DNA of 7,676 nucleotides from Bacteroidales bacterium. Its GTDB lineage: Bacteria; Bacteroidota; Bacteroidia; Bacteroidales; VadinHA17. Under the pieces are notes generated by a model. The model worked only from the letters and a program-made list of their open reading frames with translations. It did no database searches and was not told the DNA's origin. Below are positions 2,585 through 7,676 of this stretch, one piece after another. Where the stretch lies: NCBI GenBank assembly GCA_003518245.1, contig DOZA01000412.1, positions 1-7,676 of the forward strand. The letters are read 5' to 3'. Numbering within the stretch: position 1 is the stretch's first letter; every line of letters begins with the position of its first letter. A program made the translations under genes and the position numbers.

Positions 2585-3268
2585 TTATTTAAGAGAATTA
2601 AGGAATTCCACGGCTTTTATCATATCTTCCTGGCTCCTCATTTTCAGTTTGTTATCTTTTATAAAATCATTTAATGCCTTCCCCTTATCACCGGCTATAT
2701 CCAAAAGGTACTTTTTATTTCTGACAAATACAGGCTTACTATCTCCATGGGAAATATATAACAGGGGATCCCGAGTCTGGAATATAGCCGGTCTGGCATC
2801 CTGGTAGGGCTTTACAGGTTCTGCTTGTTTAAACACCACCTGGTACTGTTTTAGCAAGGAATACTCACCTTCAGCAATAATTTCAAGGTAGCCTTCCTTT
2901 TCAACAGACTGGTAATCGTAAAGGGTATATATAAAGCTGTGATCACCCATGATTACCTCGCAAACTATAACACCACGCTTTAGGGCGTATGCACCGTCTT
3001 CAAGTTTAACTTCAAAGAGATCATTATAAACATTATACCTGAGAGGTACGCCTTTGTAAATATTGCTGTCAGAAGAAATTACTATTGCCTCAGTAAATTC
3101 TTCATCCATATAGGGTGAGCCCTCGTAGTCTTCAACTTCACCTTTAAGTGCTTTCCTTATAAGAAGCTCATCATAGAACTTCTGGCCTTCAGCGCCGAGC
3201 CACAGGTTCTGTGCTGAGGCAGTGAATGCAACAAGAATTATGATTAAACTTATGTAAATCTTTTTCAT
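2585..3268 (-). CDS. Secreted protein of unknown function, Bacteroidota family
   Basis: A 227-aa protein with a clear Sec signal peptide: MKK, a hydrophobic stretch (residues 4-17) and a probable signal peptidase I cut after ASA (17-19). There is no lipobox cysteine, so it should be released into the periplasm or exported rather than lipid-anchored. The mature part contains DYEGSPYMDEEF (47-58) and GVPLRYNVYND (73-83), then a mostly beta region, and ends in a helical segment with FIKDNKLKMRSQEDMIKAVEFLNSLK features (202-227). I recognise this pattern from uncharacterised secreted proteins of the phylum, from memory only; no function is known to me. The ATG at 3268 is chosen over an in-frame TTG at 3277 because it begins the signal peptide. 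A TAACTTTG -7 box lies 22 bases upstream. The gene converges on the PII-like gene with a 16-base gap. Confidence 0.85.
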   Translation of the reverse strand: MKKIYISLIIILVAFTASAQNLWLGAEGQKFYDELLIRKALKGEVEDYEGSPYMDEEFTEAIVISSDSNIYKGVPLRYNVYNDLFEVKLEDGAYALKRGVIVCEVIMGDHSFIYTLYDYQSVEKEGYLEIIAEGEYSLLKQYQVVFKQAEPVKPYQDARPAIFQTRDPLLYISHGDSKPVFVRNKKYLLDIAGDKGKALNDFIKDNKLKMRSQEDMIKAVEFLNSLK

Positions 3269-3290
3269 AATTACCAATCTTTCATTTATA

Positions 3291-3353: not shown

Positions 3354-3391
3354 TATCTGTGTAATCTGAGTAAATCAGAGTAATCTGCGTT
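3354..3391. repeat. Short degenerate direct repeats of TAATCTGnG type
   Basis: Four successive degenerate 8-10 base units are visible on the plus strand: TATCTGTG, TAATCTGAG, TAAATCAGAG and TAATCTGCG. The block reaches the stop codon of the EF-G paralogue gene. Units of the form GCAGATTACACAGATT recur, in my memory, as intergenic repeats in genomes of this phylum. The neighbouring terminator hairpin (CAGATA/TATCTG) carries the same core, so hairpin and repeats may belong to one element. Copy number elsewhere in the genome cannot be judged from this window. Confidence 0.55.
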
Positions 3392-5543
3392 ATTCTTCTT
3401 CCTGTTCTGCTTCGTACGACTTTATAACTGTTTCCTGTACATCAGATGGTACCTGGACATATTCAGCAAATTTCATGGAGTACATGGCACGTCCTCCGGT
3501 AAGGGAACTCAGTGCTGTTGAATATTTATTCATTTCAGCCAGGGGTACTTTTGCCTTTACCACTTCGAACCCCTTTTCACTGCTCATTCCCAGCACCATA
3601 CCACGACGTCCCTGCAGGTCGCTTATCACGTCACCCATCCTGTCGGAAGGAACCATTATCTCAACATCATATACCGGTTCAAGTATTTTAGGATTGGCAG
3701 ATTTGAAAGCATTACTGAATGCATTCCGGCCTGCCAGTTTAAAAGATATCTCGTTTGAATCCACAGGATGCATCTTACCATCGTAAACATATACCCTTAT
3801 ATCACGTGCGTATGATCCTGTAAGGGGTCCTTCTTCCATTTTTTCCATTATCCCTTTAAGTATAGCGGGCATAAACCTTGCATCAATTGAACCACCAACT
3901 ATGCAATTTACGTATTCCAACATACCTCCCCATGATAGTTTATGTTCTTCTTTATCCCTTATAGATAATTTATAATCCTTTCCACCGACTTTCATGGCAG
4001 GATTAGGAGCTGATCCTTCTTCATATGGTTCGATTATAATATGTACCTCACCAAATTGTCCAGCACCACCTGATTGTTTCTTATGCCTGTAGTCAGCCTG
4101 GGCTGATTTTGTAATAGTCTCCCTGTAAGGAATCTTTGGGGCATAGAAATCTGTTTCGATCTTGAAAATATTATCAAGATGCCATTTCAGTATGTTTAAA
4201 TGATATTCACCCTGTCCATAGATGATTATCTGTTTGAGCTCTTTTGAATACTCTATCAGTATTGTAGGATCTTCCTGGTGCATACGGTTGAGAGCTTCAC
4301 CAAGTTTTTCTTCATCACCTTCACTTTTTGGTTTAATAGCTGTTCGGTATTTGGGTTCCGGGAAACTTATTTCCGGGAATTTATTATTACCCTGGCTATT
4401 AAGAGTGTGATTTGTCCTGGTATTTTTTAGTTTTACCACCGCACCAATATCTCCGGCCTCAAGCTCTGACACCCTTATCCTGTTCTTACCTGCGCTGACA
4501 TAAATTTGTGATAATCTTTCCTTTGTACTATTATTGGCATTGACAACATCAAGGTTCTCAGTTAGCCTGCCCGAAATCACCTTGAAGAAATTTATCTCAC
4601 CAATATGTTCCTCAACCGAAGATTTAAAAACAAATATTGAAGCAGGCCCGCCTGGGTCGCTTTTTACCTCTTTGCCATCCACAGTTGTCCATGCAGGCAT
4701 GTCAGCAGATGAAGGAGCTACATTGGATATGAATTCAGTTATCCTGTCTATCCCAATATTATTTTTTGCAGCAGAGCAGAAGACCGGGAATATACCCCTG
4801 TTTACCAAGCCTGTCTTTATTCCGCTTTTCATTTCTTCTTCAGTCAGGGTATCATTTTCAAAGAATATTTCCATCAGGGACTCATCATTCTCAGCTGCTT
4901 TTTCAATTAGTTCTGACTGCAGTTCTGCTGCCCTGTCGGCATGCTCTGAAGGGATATCCACTTCTTCATAATTTCCACCTGCCTTGGGATATCTGAGCAT
5001 CTTCATTTTGATAACATCAATCACAGCATCAAAGTTCTGACCCTCATTAACCGGATATTGTACCAGGGTAACGTTTCCGCCAAATCGATCCCTGAGCATT
5101 TCTACTGATTTATCAAAATTTGTTTTTTCGTGATCAAGGCCGTTAACACAAATAATGACAGGCTTATTCATTTTGTCAGAATGACGGAAATGAATTTCTG
5201 AGCCTACTTCCACACCGTTTTGAACATTTATAACCAGTACACCCGAATCGGCCACATGTAATGAAGATATAACACCACCAGCAAAATCATCAAGACCGGG
5301 CGTGTCAAGTATATTTATCTTGCTATTGCCATACTCTGTATAAAGAACTGAAGAGAAAACAGAGTTCCCGTTCTCTTGCTCTATTGGTCGGTAGTCAGAT
5401 GCTGTATTCTTGTTTTCAACCGATCCCCTTCTTTCAATAATTCCTCCATTAAAGAGCATTGCTTCCGCGAAGGTGGTCTTGCCGGAGCCTGAATTACCAA
5501 GAAGTGTTATCGACCTGATCTGTCCGGCTTGATATTTTTTCAT
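3390..5543 (-). CDS. fusA2: EF-G paralogue (EF-G2 type) with altered GTPase centre
   Basis: A 717-aa, full-length EF-G-like ribosomal translocase. Domain I (about 1-280) has the P-loop GNSGSGKT (16-23), a switch I of EQENGNS (55-61) where canonical EF-G has EQERGIT, switch II DTPGLDDF (80-87) and G4 motif NGLD (134-137). Domain II (about 295-405) and domain III follow. Domain IV has HKKQSGGAGQFGEV (487-500) and the tip segment DGKMHPVDSNE (588-598); domain V has LQGRRGMVLGM (643-653). The catalytic histidine of switch II is Leu84 and the G4 lysine is Gly135, while the parts that contact the decoding centre are kept. This agrees with the Bacteroides EF-G2 class, reported to translocate without GTP hydrolysis under carbon starvation; equivalence here is inferred from sequence resemblance. 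The ATG at 5543 is chosen because AAAGGG precedes it and a TAACTTTG box lies 54 bases upstream. TetM/TetQ-type protection proteins are a poorer fit. It is divergent from the str operon. Confidence 0.93.
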   Translation of the reverse strand: MKKYQAGQIRSITLLGNSGSGKTTFAEAMLFNGGIIERRGSVENKNTASDYRPIEQENGNSVFSSVLYTEYGNSKINILDTPGLDDFAGGVISSLHVADSGVLVINVQNGVEVGSEIHFRHSDKMNKPVIICVNGLDHEKTNFDKSVEMLRDRFGGNVTLVQYPVNEGQNFDAVIDVIKMKMLRYPKAGGNYEEVDIPSEHADRAAELQSELIEKAAENDESLMEIFFENDTLTEEEMKSGIKTGLVNRGIFPVFCSAAKNNIGIDRITEFISNVAPSSADMPAWTTVDGKEVKSDPGGPASIFVFKSSVEEHIGEINFFKVISGRLTENLDVVNANNSTKERLSQIYVSAGKNRIRVSELEAGDIGAVVKLKNTRTNHTLNSQGNNKFPEISFPEPKYRTAIKPKSEGDEEKLGEALNRMHQEDPTILIEYSKELKQIIIYGQGEYHLNILKWHLDNIFKIETDFYAPKIPYRETITKSAQADYRHKKQSGGAGQFGEVHIIIEPYEEGSAPNPAMKVGGKDYKLSIRDKEEHKLSWGGMLEYVNCIVGGSIDARFMPAILKGIMEKMEEGPLTGSYARDIRVYVYDGKMHPVDSNEISFKLAGRNAFSNAFKSANPKILEPVYDVEIMVPSDRMGDVISDLQGRRGMVLGMSSEKGFEVVKAKVPLAEMNKYSTALSSLTGGRAMYSMKFAEYVQVPSDVQETVIKSYEAEQEEE

Positions 5544-5597: not shown

Positions 5598-5605
5598 CAA
5601 AGTTA
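5598..5605 (-). promoter_or_regulatory. -7 box of promoter for the EF-G paralogue gene
   Basis: Reads TAACTTTG on the minus strand, an exact TAnnTTTG match and identical to the box of the neighbouring secreted protein gene. The predicted start of transcription is near 5594, giving a leader of about 50 bases before the ATG at 5543. I see no good TTTG -33 element at 19-20 bases spacing; the upstream DNA is a T/A-rich tract. A weak -33 would fit a promoter that depends on an activator, which is inference. Confidence 0.6.
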
Positions 5606-5733: not shown

Positions 5734-5749
5734 ATAATTCATGAATTAT
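5734..5749. repeat. Perfect 16-bp palindrome
   Basis: ATAATTCATGAATTAT is identical to its reverse complement. It lies at the edge of the broken beta-propeller reading frame and includes that frame's ATG. It may be a binding site for a dimeric regulator or a chance feature of AT-rich DNA. Confidence 0.4.
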
Positions 5750-6055
5750 TCGCATATTATTATTATTAAATTAGTAAGGGAATGTGGTATAGTTGCGTTT
5801 AAAGACAATCAGCTAGAAATATTAATAATGCATGCATTCAGTGTTCCGGCAGTTATCCGGGGAGGAATTATAAATGCATGTTGCACTGAAAAGTACATAT
5901 ACTGTCTTGCGCATGATAATTCAGAAAAGCTTACCCGGGACGACTTTAGAAAGGGCCAGAGGAATGTTTTTATTTTTAACTGGGATGGTACTCCTGTAAG
6001 AATTATTGCGCTCGCATTGAGAATAATTGGTCCTTCAACCTTTAATACAAGATAG
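5741..6055 (+). pseudogene. Probable remnant of a 6-bladed beta-propeller (BF3164-like) protein gene
   Basis: A 104-codon open frame that does not look like a whole protein. Its middle part, INACCTEKYIYCLAHDNS (about 44-61) followed by VFIFNWDGTPVRIIAL (about 76-91), resembles the segment of BF3164-like/TolB-like 6-bladed beta-propeller lipoproteins that usually reads like CATDQYIYALYCG, then IQVFDWDGKPVKKY (from memory). Those proteins are about 350-400 aa with a lipoprotein signal peptide. Here the N-terminal blades and signal peptide are missing, the frame ends soon after the WDG strand, and no downstream frame continues the family pattern that I can see. I infer a decayed gene rather than a functional short protein. 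It is flanked by a 16-bp palindrome and has no convincing promoter or ribosome binding site. An alternative is an unrelated hypothetical protein or a chance frame. Confidence 0.45.
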
Positions 6056-6279: not shown

Positions 6280-6512
6280 CCGGTTTTTTAGACCCAGGAG
6301 TACCGGTGGTTTTCTCCTATAAGTAAGTGAATAAAAAATATTCTCTGGGAAACAATCGGGAAGGAACCTGTTAGAAACTTACGTTTTTCAGGTAAAGAGA
6401 CAGGAAAAACCGTTTTAACTGTCACATGGTGGCAGAGGGGTAATTATACTCTGTAAATATTGATAGTTGATTTAATTTAATATAAACAATTTTAATATAA
6501 ACAATTGTATTT
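6280..6512 (+). promoter_or_regulatory. Structured 5' leader of the str operon
   Basis: This ~230-base stretch between promoter and rpsL contains no gene but several pairings. (a) CCGGT (6280-6284) with ACCGG (6302-6306), interleaved with GGAG (6297-6300) and CTCC (6314-6317). (b) GTTTTTC (6083+300=6383-6389) with GAAAAAC (6404-6410), extended with bulges by AC/GT, AAA/TTT and GTT/AAC to span 6370-6419. (c) CTGTCAC-ATG-GTGGCAG (6419-6435), a 7-bp stem with one G-T pair. An alternative pairing, CGGTTTTT (6281-6288) with AAAAACCG (6405-6412), would break hairpin b. In many bacteria r-protein operons are autoregulated by a ribosomal protein binding its own mRNA; such a role here is inference. 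No T-run follows hairpin c, so attenuation by termination is not supported. Confidence 0.4.
6476..6505 (+). repeat. Perfect 15-bp tandem duplication in the rpsL initiation region
   Basis: TTTAATATAAACAAT occurs at 6476-6490 and again, identically and without gap, at 6491-6505. The second copy ends 7 bases before the rpsL ATG at 6513. No Shine-Dalgarno sequence is present; the A/T-rich, probably unstructured repeat occupies the place where a ribosome binding site would be. Confidence 0.9.
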
Positions 6513-6887
6513 ATGCCAACAATACAACAATTAGTAAGAAAGGGCAGAAAAAGGCTTGTTGAAAAAAGCAAAGCTCCTGCTTTGGATTCATGCCCTCAAC
6601 GTAGGGGTGTATGTGTACGTGTATACACAACCACGCCCAAGAAGCCAAACTCGGCCATGCGTAAGGTGGCCAGGGTAAGGCTCACAAATGGCAAGGAGGT
6701 TAACGCTTACATCCCTGGAGAAGGACATAATCTTCAAGAACACTCAATAGTGTTGATAAGAGGCGGCAGGGTAAAAGACCTTCCGGGAGTCAGGTATCAC
6801 CTTATACGTGGAGCACTTGACACTTCAGGTGTCGAAGGTCGTACTCAGAGGCGCTCTAAATACGGGGCTAAAAGACCAAAGAATTAG
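6513..6887 (+). CDS. rpsL: 30S ribosomal protein S12
   Basis: A 124-aa protein of standard length, first gene of the str operon. S12 sits at the decoding centre of the small subunit and affects tRNA selection. The hallmark segments are present: [12 protein letters not shown] at the N-terminus, [19 protein letters not shown] (39-57), [10 protein letters not shown] (69-78) and [13 protein letters not shown] (84-96). The two lysines whose mutation gives streptomycin resistance (K43 and K88 counting Met; K42/K87 in E. coli usage) are wild type, so no rpsL-based resistance is predicted. D89 is the position methylthiolated by RimO in other bacteria. The ATG at 6513 lacks a Shine-Dalgarno sequence and follows a 15-bp tandem duplication. 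rpsG starts 26 bases after the stop. Confidence 0.99.
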
Positions 6888-6913: not shown

Positions 6914-7390
6914 ATGAGAAAATCAAGACCAAAAAAGAAGATCATTCTTCCTGATCCTAAATTCAATGACCCTTATGTAACCAGGTTTGTAAATAACCTG
7001 ATGCTGAATGGTAAAAAGAATCTTGCATTCAAGATTTTTTATGATTCTCTTGACATTGTTGAAGGGAAAGTGAAGGATGAAGAGAAGAGTGCTCTTGAGA
7101 TATGGAAGCAGGCACTGGAAAATGTCACACCACAGGTAGAGGTGAAAAGCCGTAGAGTTGGGGGAGCTACATTCCAGGTCCCGATGGAAGTCAGAGGTGA
7201 CAGGAAGATCAGTATCAGTATGAAGAACCTTATTTTCTTCGCACGTAAAAGGTCTGGCAGGAATATGGCTGAAAGGCTGGCAGCCGAAGTGGTAGCAGCT
7301 TACAACAGTGAGGGAGGAGCTTTCAAAAGAAAAGAAGATACGCACCGGATGGCTGAAGCAAATAAAGCTTTTGCCCATTTTCGGTTTTAG
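6914..7390 (+). CDS. rpsG: 30S ribosomal protein S7
   Basis: A 158-aa protein of normal length for the phylum. S7 is a primary binder of the 3' domain of 16S rRNA and lies near the exit-site tRNA. Recognisable segments are [28 protein letters not shown] (17-35), [20 protein letters not shown] (61-80) with [11 protein letters not shown] directly after it, [15 protein letters not shown], and the C-terminus [25 protein letters not shown], which is strongly conserved. It lies 26 bases after rpsL and 22 bases before fusA in the usual str order. A strong AAGGAG precedes the ATG. In E. coli S7 represses its operon through the rpsL-rpsG spacer; the 26-base spacer here is too short to hold an equivalent structure, so any such control would have to act elsewhere. 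Confidence 0.99.
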
Positions 7391-7412: not shown

Positions 7413-7676
7413 ATGAGTAATAACCTCGAAAATACGCGTAATATAGGCATCATGGCTCACATTGATGCTGGTAAGACCACCACTACAGAAAGAATTCTGT
7501 TTTACACCGGTCGTACCCATCGCCTTGGTGAAGTGCATGATGGCAATGCTCAGATGGACTGGATGATCCAGGAGCAGGAGCGCGGCATCACGATCACTTC
7601 TGCTGCCACGACTGCGTACTGGCGCGACCACTGCATCAACATCATAGACACGCCGGGACACGTCGACTTCACGGCC
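7413..7676 (+). CDS. fusA: Elongation factor G (canonical), 3'-truncated by window edge
   Basis: The first 88 codons of the canonical translocase GTPase. The frame ATG AGT AAT AAC CTC begins at 7413, 22 bases after rpsG, and runs open to the window end. Visible GTPase motifs are P-loop [19 protein letters not shown] (15-33), switch [21 protein letters not shown] (39-58) followed by ITITSAATT, and switch [10 protein letters not shown] (79-86) with the catalytic histidine H83. All signature residues are intact, in contrast to the EF-G paralogue encoded at 3390-5543. Fusidic acid resistance positions lie mostly beyond the window and cannot be read. GC content rises steeply along this fragment, to about 60% in the last 116 bases against about 33-42% in rpsG and the first part of fusA. 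Stronger codon bias of a highly expressed gene could explain part of this. Confidence 0.97.

Follow-up and report, generated by a model that had tools for sequence, protein, structure and literature searches.

Organization of the EF-G2 locus

The window, by which we mean the whole stretch of 7,676 nucleotides that was analysed, carries an EF-G2 gene at 3390..5543 on the minus strand. The gene comprises 717 codons plus a stop, with its ATG at 5541-5543 and its stop at 3390-3392 in the list of window ORFs, and is identified by its ORF, the NCBIfam model NF058620 and a full-length match to PDB entries 7uvp and 8dmf. Running away from it on the plus strand is the start of the str operon. The first gene of this divergent operon is rpsL, which encodes ribosomal protein S12 (6513..6887) and has 92-98% identical matches beside EF-G2 in relatives where these were seen. 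It is followed by rpsG for ribosomal protein S7 (6914..7390), which also has matches in relatives, and by the first 88 codons of fusA (7413..7676), which encode the DTPGHVDF motif of a standard EF-G and are truncated by the end of the contig.

Several other features surround these genes. Between EF-G2 and rpsL, a 104-amino-acid frame on the plus strand (5741-6055) aligns with just the terminal part of the TolB-like propeller family PF15869, at 29.8 bits against a cut-off of 29.2, and is probably what remains of a gene, making the divergent region wider. Directly downstream of EF-G2 and on the same strand, positions 2585-3277 encode a 230-amino-acid protein with no Pfam match; similar genes (40-63%) occupy the same place in three genus mates and in genome G207. 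The plus strand from 2 to 2568 holds the final part of a gene for an RND efflux pump and then a P-II-like gene of 97 amino acids, a layout that is also found beside EF-G2 in several relatives. An Rfam scan of the window at gathering scores returned no matches.

The same genome has a second EF-G fragment on contig C281 (L213:7589-9520), located beside ribosomal protein operons and mosaic in appearance. Compared with fusA of the genus, its first ~240 aligned columns are 41-68% identical and the rest are 85-100% identical. This contig was ruled out as the source of the rest of the window's fusA because its first part fails to match. It is likely chimeric, and recombination may be an alternative explanation.

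Within the EF-G2 gene, all on the minus strand, the P-loop GNSGSGKT (residues 16-23) is encoded at 5475..5498. A G2 motif of NGNSV in place of RGITI (residues 58-62; 5358..5372) retains Ser61, which an excerpt of PMC3150367 gives as an EFG II trait. The G3 motif DTPGLDDF (residues 80-87; 5283..5306) includes codon 84 at 5292..5294, where the plus strand reads aag and the minus strand therefore reads CTT for leucine, at the site that alignments equate with the switch II histidine of standard EF-G. This substitution had been pointed out in an earlier note on the same DNA, by comparison with DTPGHVDF in standard EF-G, and we confirm it. In the G4 motif NGLD (residues 134-137; 5133..5144), glycine stands where NKxD has its lysine. 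Across the 136 EFG II proteins in our alignment, there are zero changes at Gly16, Gly21, Lys22 and Thr23 of the P-loop or at Asp80, Pro82, Gly83 and Asp86.

Domain IV includes the stretch that carries the EF-G2 insert (residues 507-540; 3924..4025), which corresponds to a gap in T. thermophilus EF-G. At the tip of the domain, the codon for H592 (3768..3770) aligns with His573 of T. thermophilus EF-G, and this residue is histidine in 141/141 rows. The loop I glutamine Q496 is also retained. It is Gln in 135/136 EFG II rows, and the standard rows (n=5) show Lys at a place where the alignment is shifted. The loop I arginine of standard EF-G (GGRGQYG) aligns with alanine in the window protein (GGAGQFG), a change that is absent from the earlier note. 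A predicted structure of the protein has a mean pLDDT of 71.5, which is moderate, and superposes poorly on 8dmf overall (TM 0.56).

Family membership and distribution

The window protein scores 1198.8 bits with the NCBIfam model EFG2_Bacteroid (NF058620, 'elongation factor G2'), for which the cut-off is 1000. It reaches 526.7 bits with the standard EF-G model (EFG I, TIGR00484), below the cut-off of 659.4, and it also departs from standard EF-G in having NGNSV rather than RGITI and DTPGL rather than DTPGH. Its best PDB match, 7uvp/8dmf, covers the full length at 962 bits with 59% identity, and the next best match scores 462. In a fold search, 8dmf carries a title that names it ribosome-bound Bacteroides thetaiotaomicron EF-G2, and its sequence is the same as that of 7uvp. 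The PDB molecule label of this protein is Tetracycline resistance protein TetQ, which is a misleading name.

For EFG II, an excerpt of PMC3150367 describes the loss of RGITI with retention of the serine, and gives YGYSV for Bacteroidetes. The window protein lacks RGITI, has serine at the fourth position of its G2 motif (NGNSV) and has Gly16 in the P-loop. The same excerpt gives Leu25 in 99% of that paper's EFG II set. The window protein has Phe25, and among our insert-bearing rows 82/99 have Leu and 12 have Phe. Because this is one position of twelve, and because the family model and the tree support the assignment, we retain the protein in EFG II.

Two quick maximum-likelihood trees without bootstrap were made from 121 and 141 proteins, with columns 84, 135 and 507-541 excluded. 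Their rows were selected from 321 aligned sequences, with 20 more added, and comprise five standard EF-G proteins, 17 and then 37 insertless EFG II proteins, 43 short-insert EF-G2 proteins and 56 long-insert EF-G2 proteins. Because the insertless rows were drawn from the better-scoring phylum matches, all row counts given here hold for this sample. B. thetaiotaomicron EF-G2 is not itself a tree row and is represented by the near-identical protein of B. faecis MAJ27, which is only a few residues off. In both trees, a single branch (support 91 and 88) sets the long-insert rows off from all others, and among them lie both the window EF-G2 and Bacteroides EF-G2, separate from insertless EFG II and from standard EF-G. 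Family model, identity and tree position assign the gene to the same kind of EF-G2 as that of B. thetaiotaomicron, a family already known. The earlier note's identification of an EF-G2-type paralogue is upheld, and the protein lies inside the EF-G2 clade; a position outside it was what that note had named as grounds for rejection.

Homologues are abundant. At least 8000 candidates were scored, all of which pass an E-value of 0.001, and the best 120 of them are 74-100% identical to the window protein, some being named Bacteroidales bacterium by their sources. In a phylum sample of 198 genomes, nine have a protein above the NF058620 cut-off, and 74/198 score at least 739 bits in a single stretch across almost the entire model. 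Below this full-length type, scores drop to 565, for a match spanning the first 510 model positions. Closer to the window, EF-G2 is found at E below 1e-150 in 53/60 relatives, and in 40/44 near-complete genomes, with no stops within the listed matches.

Sequence changes specific to EF-G2

The switch II histidine helps to position the attacking water in translational GTPases. In our sample it is present in 5/5 standard EF-G proteins and absent from insertless EFG II (0/37), short-insert (0/43) and long-insert (0/56) EF-G2 proteins, and so from 136/136 EFG II proteins overall. The insertless rows have 24 Tyr, 10 Leu and 3 Phe at site 84, B. thetaiotaomicron EF-G2 has Ser, and T. thermophilus EF-G-2 has Tyr (DAPGYGDF). 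Leucine occurs in 22/56 long-insert rows and in 27/27 loci of the window's own family (L118-L146 minus L139 and L145, which are from other families and have Ala), and this recurrence argues that the leucine codon is not a sequencing slip. By these comparisons, absence of the histidine is a mark of the EFG II subfamily.

The domain IV insert has a narrower distribution. The stretch at residues 507-540 is 34 residues long in both the window protein and B. thetaiotaomicron EF-G2 and five residues long in insertless EFG II, which makes the insert about 29 residues. Of six standard EF-G rows, three have six residues here and three have 18 residues of unrelated sequence. Han and colleagues (EMBO J 2023) reportedly found that a 26-residue region of EF-G2 is essential and is the cause of its missing GTPase activity. 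We infer that this region is the domain IV insert seen here, and the role that we assign to the insert derives from that reported finding.

Retention of the NKxD lysine also follows the insert classes, with 37/37 insertless, 19/43 short-insert and 2/56 long-insert proteins keeping it. When all substitutions at this G4 site are placed on the tree, 21 changes fall in insert-bearing rows and 0 in insertless rows, a split with an uncorrected chance of ~0.003 given the branch lengths (32.6 versus 10.7). Scored simply as lysine or not, there are six changes, all in insert-bearing rows, and the chance of about 0.18 is non-significant, so the excess is suggestive but unproven. Among 100 sites that are invariant in insertless rows, four change more than the G4 lysine site. 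In these alignments, the domain IV insert and, suggestively, the relaxed NKxD lysine appear to be more specific to EF-G2 than is the loss of the histidine.

Divergent pairing with the str operon

We compared the arrangement of EF-G2 and rpsL across 19 loci from relatives (L215-L233), 18 from the window's family and one from its sister family. The two genes are head to head at ~1.1 kb or less in 16/19 of these loci, two more have them within about 4.5 kb, and in one the contig starts too near to judge. A separate count of 24/29 for divergent pairing overlaps this set. Among 19 loci from other families of the order (L147-L165), several of which are cut by contig ends, the close divergent pair occurs in L147 and L148, and L152 has it at 3.7 kb. 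The pair was seen in 0/80 named loci (L008-L087), mostly from Bacteroidaceae and Prevotellaceae, with flanks of up to 6 kb that are cut in some cases, and in 0/49 phylum-wide loci with 1-1.5 kb of flank.

The divergent loci share the sequence TAnnTTTG, which we take to be the promoter −7 consensus. In the window, a promoter-like −7 box of this form, TAACTTTG, is located upstream of EF-G2 at 5598..5605 on the minus strand. A TAnnTTTG sequence is present within 150 nucleotides upstream of EF-G2 in 19/19 divergent loci (shuffles: mean 2.0, largest 7) and on the rpsL side in 14/19 (shuffles: mean 2.8, largest 8). The 150 nucleotides upstream of rpsL (6362-6512) lack a TACCTTTG box in the window, and the corresponding regions lack it in the three genus mates. 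EF-G2 is thus linked on the DNA to the operon that encodes its GTP-using counterpart, a setting in which the two might be under reciprocal control.

Absence of the Bacteroides Cur box

The Cur box consensus was taken from an excerpt of PMC6989115. Sites with at most two mismatches to it occur within 400 nucleotides upstream of EF-G2 in 23/74 named loci (null mean 0.6, largest 2) and in 4/18 loci from other families (null mean 0.2, largest 2). By the same criteria, the Cur (BT4338) box was found in 0/20 loci comprising the window and its relatives. The best Cur-like site between EF-G2 and rpsL in the window has four mismatches. A Cur box upstream of the window gene was rejected also in view of the two three-mismatch matches in the window, since neither lies upstream and 0.97 would be expected by chance. 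The published 22-base Cur site has an exact copy in 0/117 loci, and the upstream region of B. faecis (L008) shares 20/22 bases with it. A search of the window's own genome for Crp-type regulators gave seven matches, five of them above the cut-off and none assigned to Cur.

The Cur box should be read as a trait of Bacteroides species and not of the NF058620 family model. Given the 0/20 count, the Bacteroides starvation circuit is not visible here. The earlier note mentions a role of B. thetaiotaomicron EF-G2 under carbon starvation; carrying control by carbon starvation over to this genome is not supported, as there is no Cur-like box upstream and the gene is placed elsewhere than in Bacteroides. 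Locus L147, from another family of the order, has both a divergent str operon and a one-mismatch Cur-like box upstream of EF-G2, and its layout is possibly an intermediate arrangement.

A probable GTP-independent translocase and its alternatives

An excerpt of PMC10294740 reports that B. thetaiotaomicron EF-G2 enables GTP-independent translation. By analogy, and on the grounds of family and clade membership, we consider it probable that the window EF-G2 translocates tRNA and mRNA on the ribosome with no GTP hydrolysis, and the protein is likely energy-saving in the same manner. We hold our confidence at this level because none of the papers found reports assaying a member of this EF-G2 family from outside Bacteroides. 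The window protein keeps the phosphate and Mg side of its pocket (GKT, DxPG and Ser61), lacks the switch II histidine, RGITI and the NKxD lysine, and carries the EF-G2 domain IV insert. With GKT, DxPG and the G2 serine intact, there is room for nucleotide binding or slow hydrolysis. Also speaking against this reading are the residue differences from B. thetaiotaomicron EF-G2 at site 84 and in the G2 and G4 motifs, the non-significant two-state result for loss of the lysine and the missing Cur box. In such a mechanism, factor binding rather than GTP cleavage would drive translocation. Loss of the histidine would be an old EFG II trait that is insufficient alone, and the step specific to EF-G2 would lie in the domain IV insert, accompanied by looser nucleotide binding. 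The divergent promoters would then allow the cell to adjust the ratio of EF-G2 to the GTP-using EF-G encoded in the str operon.

The earlier note took the loss of the histidine as the sign and cause of lost hydrolysis, which would mean that the His to Leu change itself abolishes GTP hydrolysis in the window EF-G2. The role of this residue in water placement, and its presence in all five standard EF-G rows where the window protein has Leu, speak for such a view. However, the residue is lacking throughout the sampled EFG II proteins and in B. thetaiotaomicron EF-G2, which has Ser, and T. thermophilus EF-G-2, with Tyr at the site, hydrolyses GTP according to an excerpt of PMC3150367. Leucine itself is found in 10/37 insertless rows that keep the NKxD lysine. 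Because the absence extends across EFG II and includes a GTP-hydrolysing member, it is by itself no proof of absent hydrolysis. We therefore rule it out as a diagnostic of non-hydrolysing EF-G, and regard the direct effect of the His to Leu change as an unlikely explanation. The activity of the T. thermophilus protein, together with the constancy of the phosphate and Mg motifs in the sampled rows, could instead favour an EFG II factor with GTP hydrolysis preserved, either at a slow rate or for a specialised task such as ribosome recycling or rescue, with no energy saved. A division of translocation and recycling between paralogues is reported for the Borrelia EF-G pair in an excerpt of PMC3150367. 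Against this, the window protein shares its family and insert class with B. thetaiotaomicron EF-G2 and has lost the NKxD lysine, and we give a hydrolysing role only a slim chance. The same excerpt describes M. smegmatis EF-G-2 as having no ribosome-dependent GTPase activity, so loss of this activity in EFG II can come by a route other than the insert.

The PDB label of 7uvp might suggest a tetracycline protection protein, and an extra EF-G copy might simply be decaying. Both ideas are rejected and together have a negligible probability. The Tet(Q) model gives the window protein 126.4 bits against a cut-off of 1425, and 8dmf, with the same sequence as 7uvp, is titled EF-G2. Against each of its two nearest relatives, the gene has dN 0.06 and dS 1.6-1.9, for a dN/dS of about 0.03-0.04 that is approximate because dS is near saturation; two further relatives are saturated even more. 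The G domain alone has similar dN and dS values. The gene is maintained under strong purifying selection and, given also its retention in relatives as reported above, the earlier note was right to argue that it is not a decaying copy.

If EF-G2 is indeed GTP-independent, it and the GTP-using EF-G might form the two arms of a single switch in this Bacteroidales family. Back-to-back EF-G2 and str promoters would replace the unlinked, Cur-driven layout of Bacteroides. EF-G2 would be indifferent to the nucleotide, with the base-side lysine let go along with the insert (the 21 versus 0 changes) and the phosphate-side core kept as a structural relic. We offer this combined proposal tentatively and consider it more doubtful than not.

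EF-G2 provides a naturally occurring test of whether GTP hydrolysis is required for translocation at all. This question is debated in a 2025 study, an excerpt of which (PMC12775393) points to an EF-G paralogue capable of translocation without GTP hydrolysis as an argument against a driving role for hydrolysis. Because the missing switch II histidine is common to EFG II at large in this sample, its use overcalls non-hydrolysing proteins, and the domain IV insert, combined with a relaxed NKxD lysine, would be a better marker of the EF-G2 lineage. The genomic setting of EF-G2 in the window's family is unlike that in the gut species. If our reading is true, GTP-sparing translation would come with more than one kind of wiring, and natural variants from uncultured relatives would help to pinpoint the important residues. 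The divergent setting with its −7 box and the absence of the Cur box may be new observations. The regulatory setting and the G4 lysine pattern are the parts worth pursuing, and they may be novel in print.

Comparison with known systems

Like the standard EF-G of the str operon (EFG I, fusA), the window EF-G2 has a five-domain build by Pfam and a histidine at the domain IV tip, whereas DTPGHVDF, RGITI and NKxD belong to standard EF-G and not to the window protein. T. thermophilus EF-G-2 (EFG II; PDB 1wdt) resembles it in its G domain, which has GxxGSGKTT and no switch II histidine (Tyr in 1wdt), over an alignment that ends at residue 510. However, the T. thermophilus protein keeps its NKxD lysine (TKLD) and is the reported GTP hydrolyser of PMC3150367, as excerpted. 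The closest known system is B. thetaiotaomicron EF-G2 (fusA2, BT2167; 7uvp, 8dmf). Relative to it, the window protein has Leu for Ser at site 84, NGNSV for YGYSV and NGLD for NQLD, and its gene adjoins the str operon without a Cur box. Both proteins lack the switch II histidine, RGITI and the NKxD lysine, and they share the family model, a full-length match at 59% identity and a domain IV stretch of equal length.
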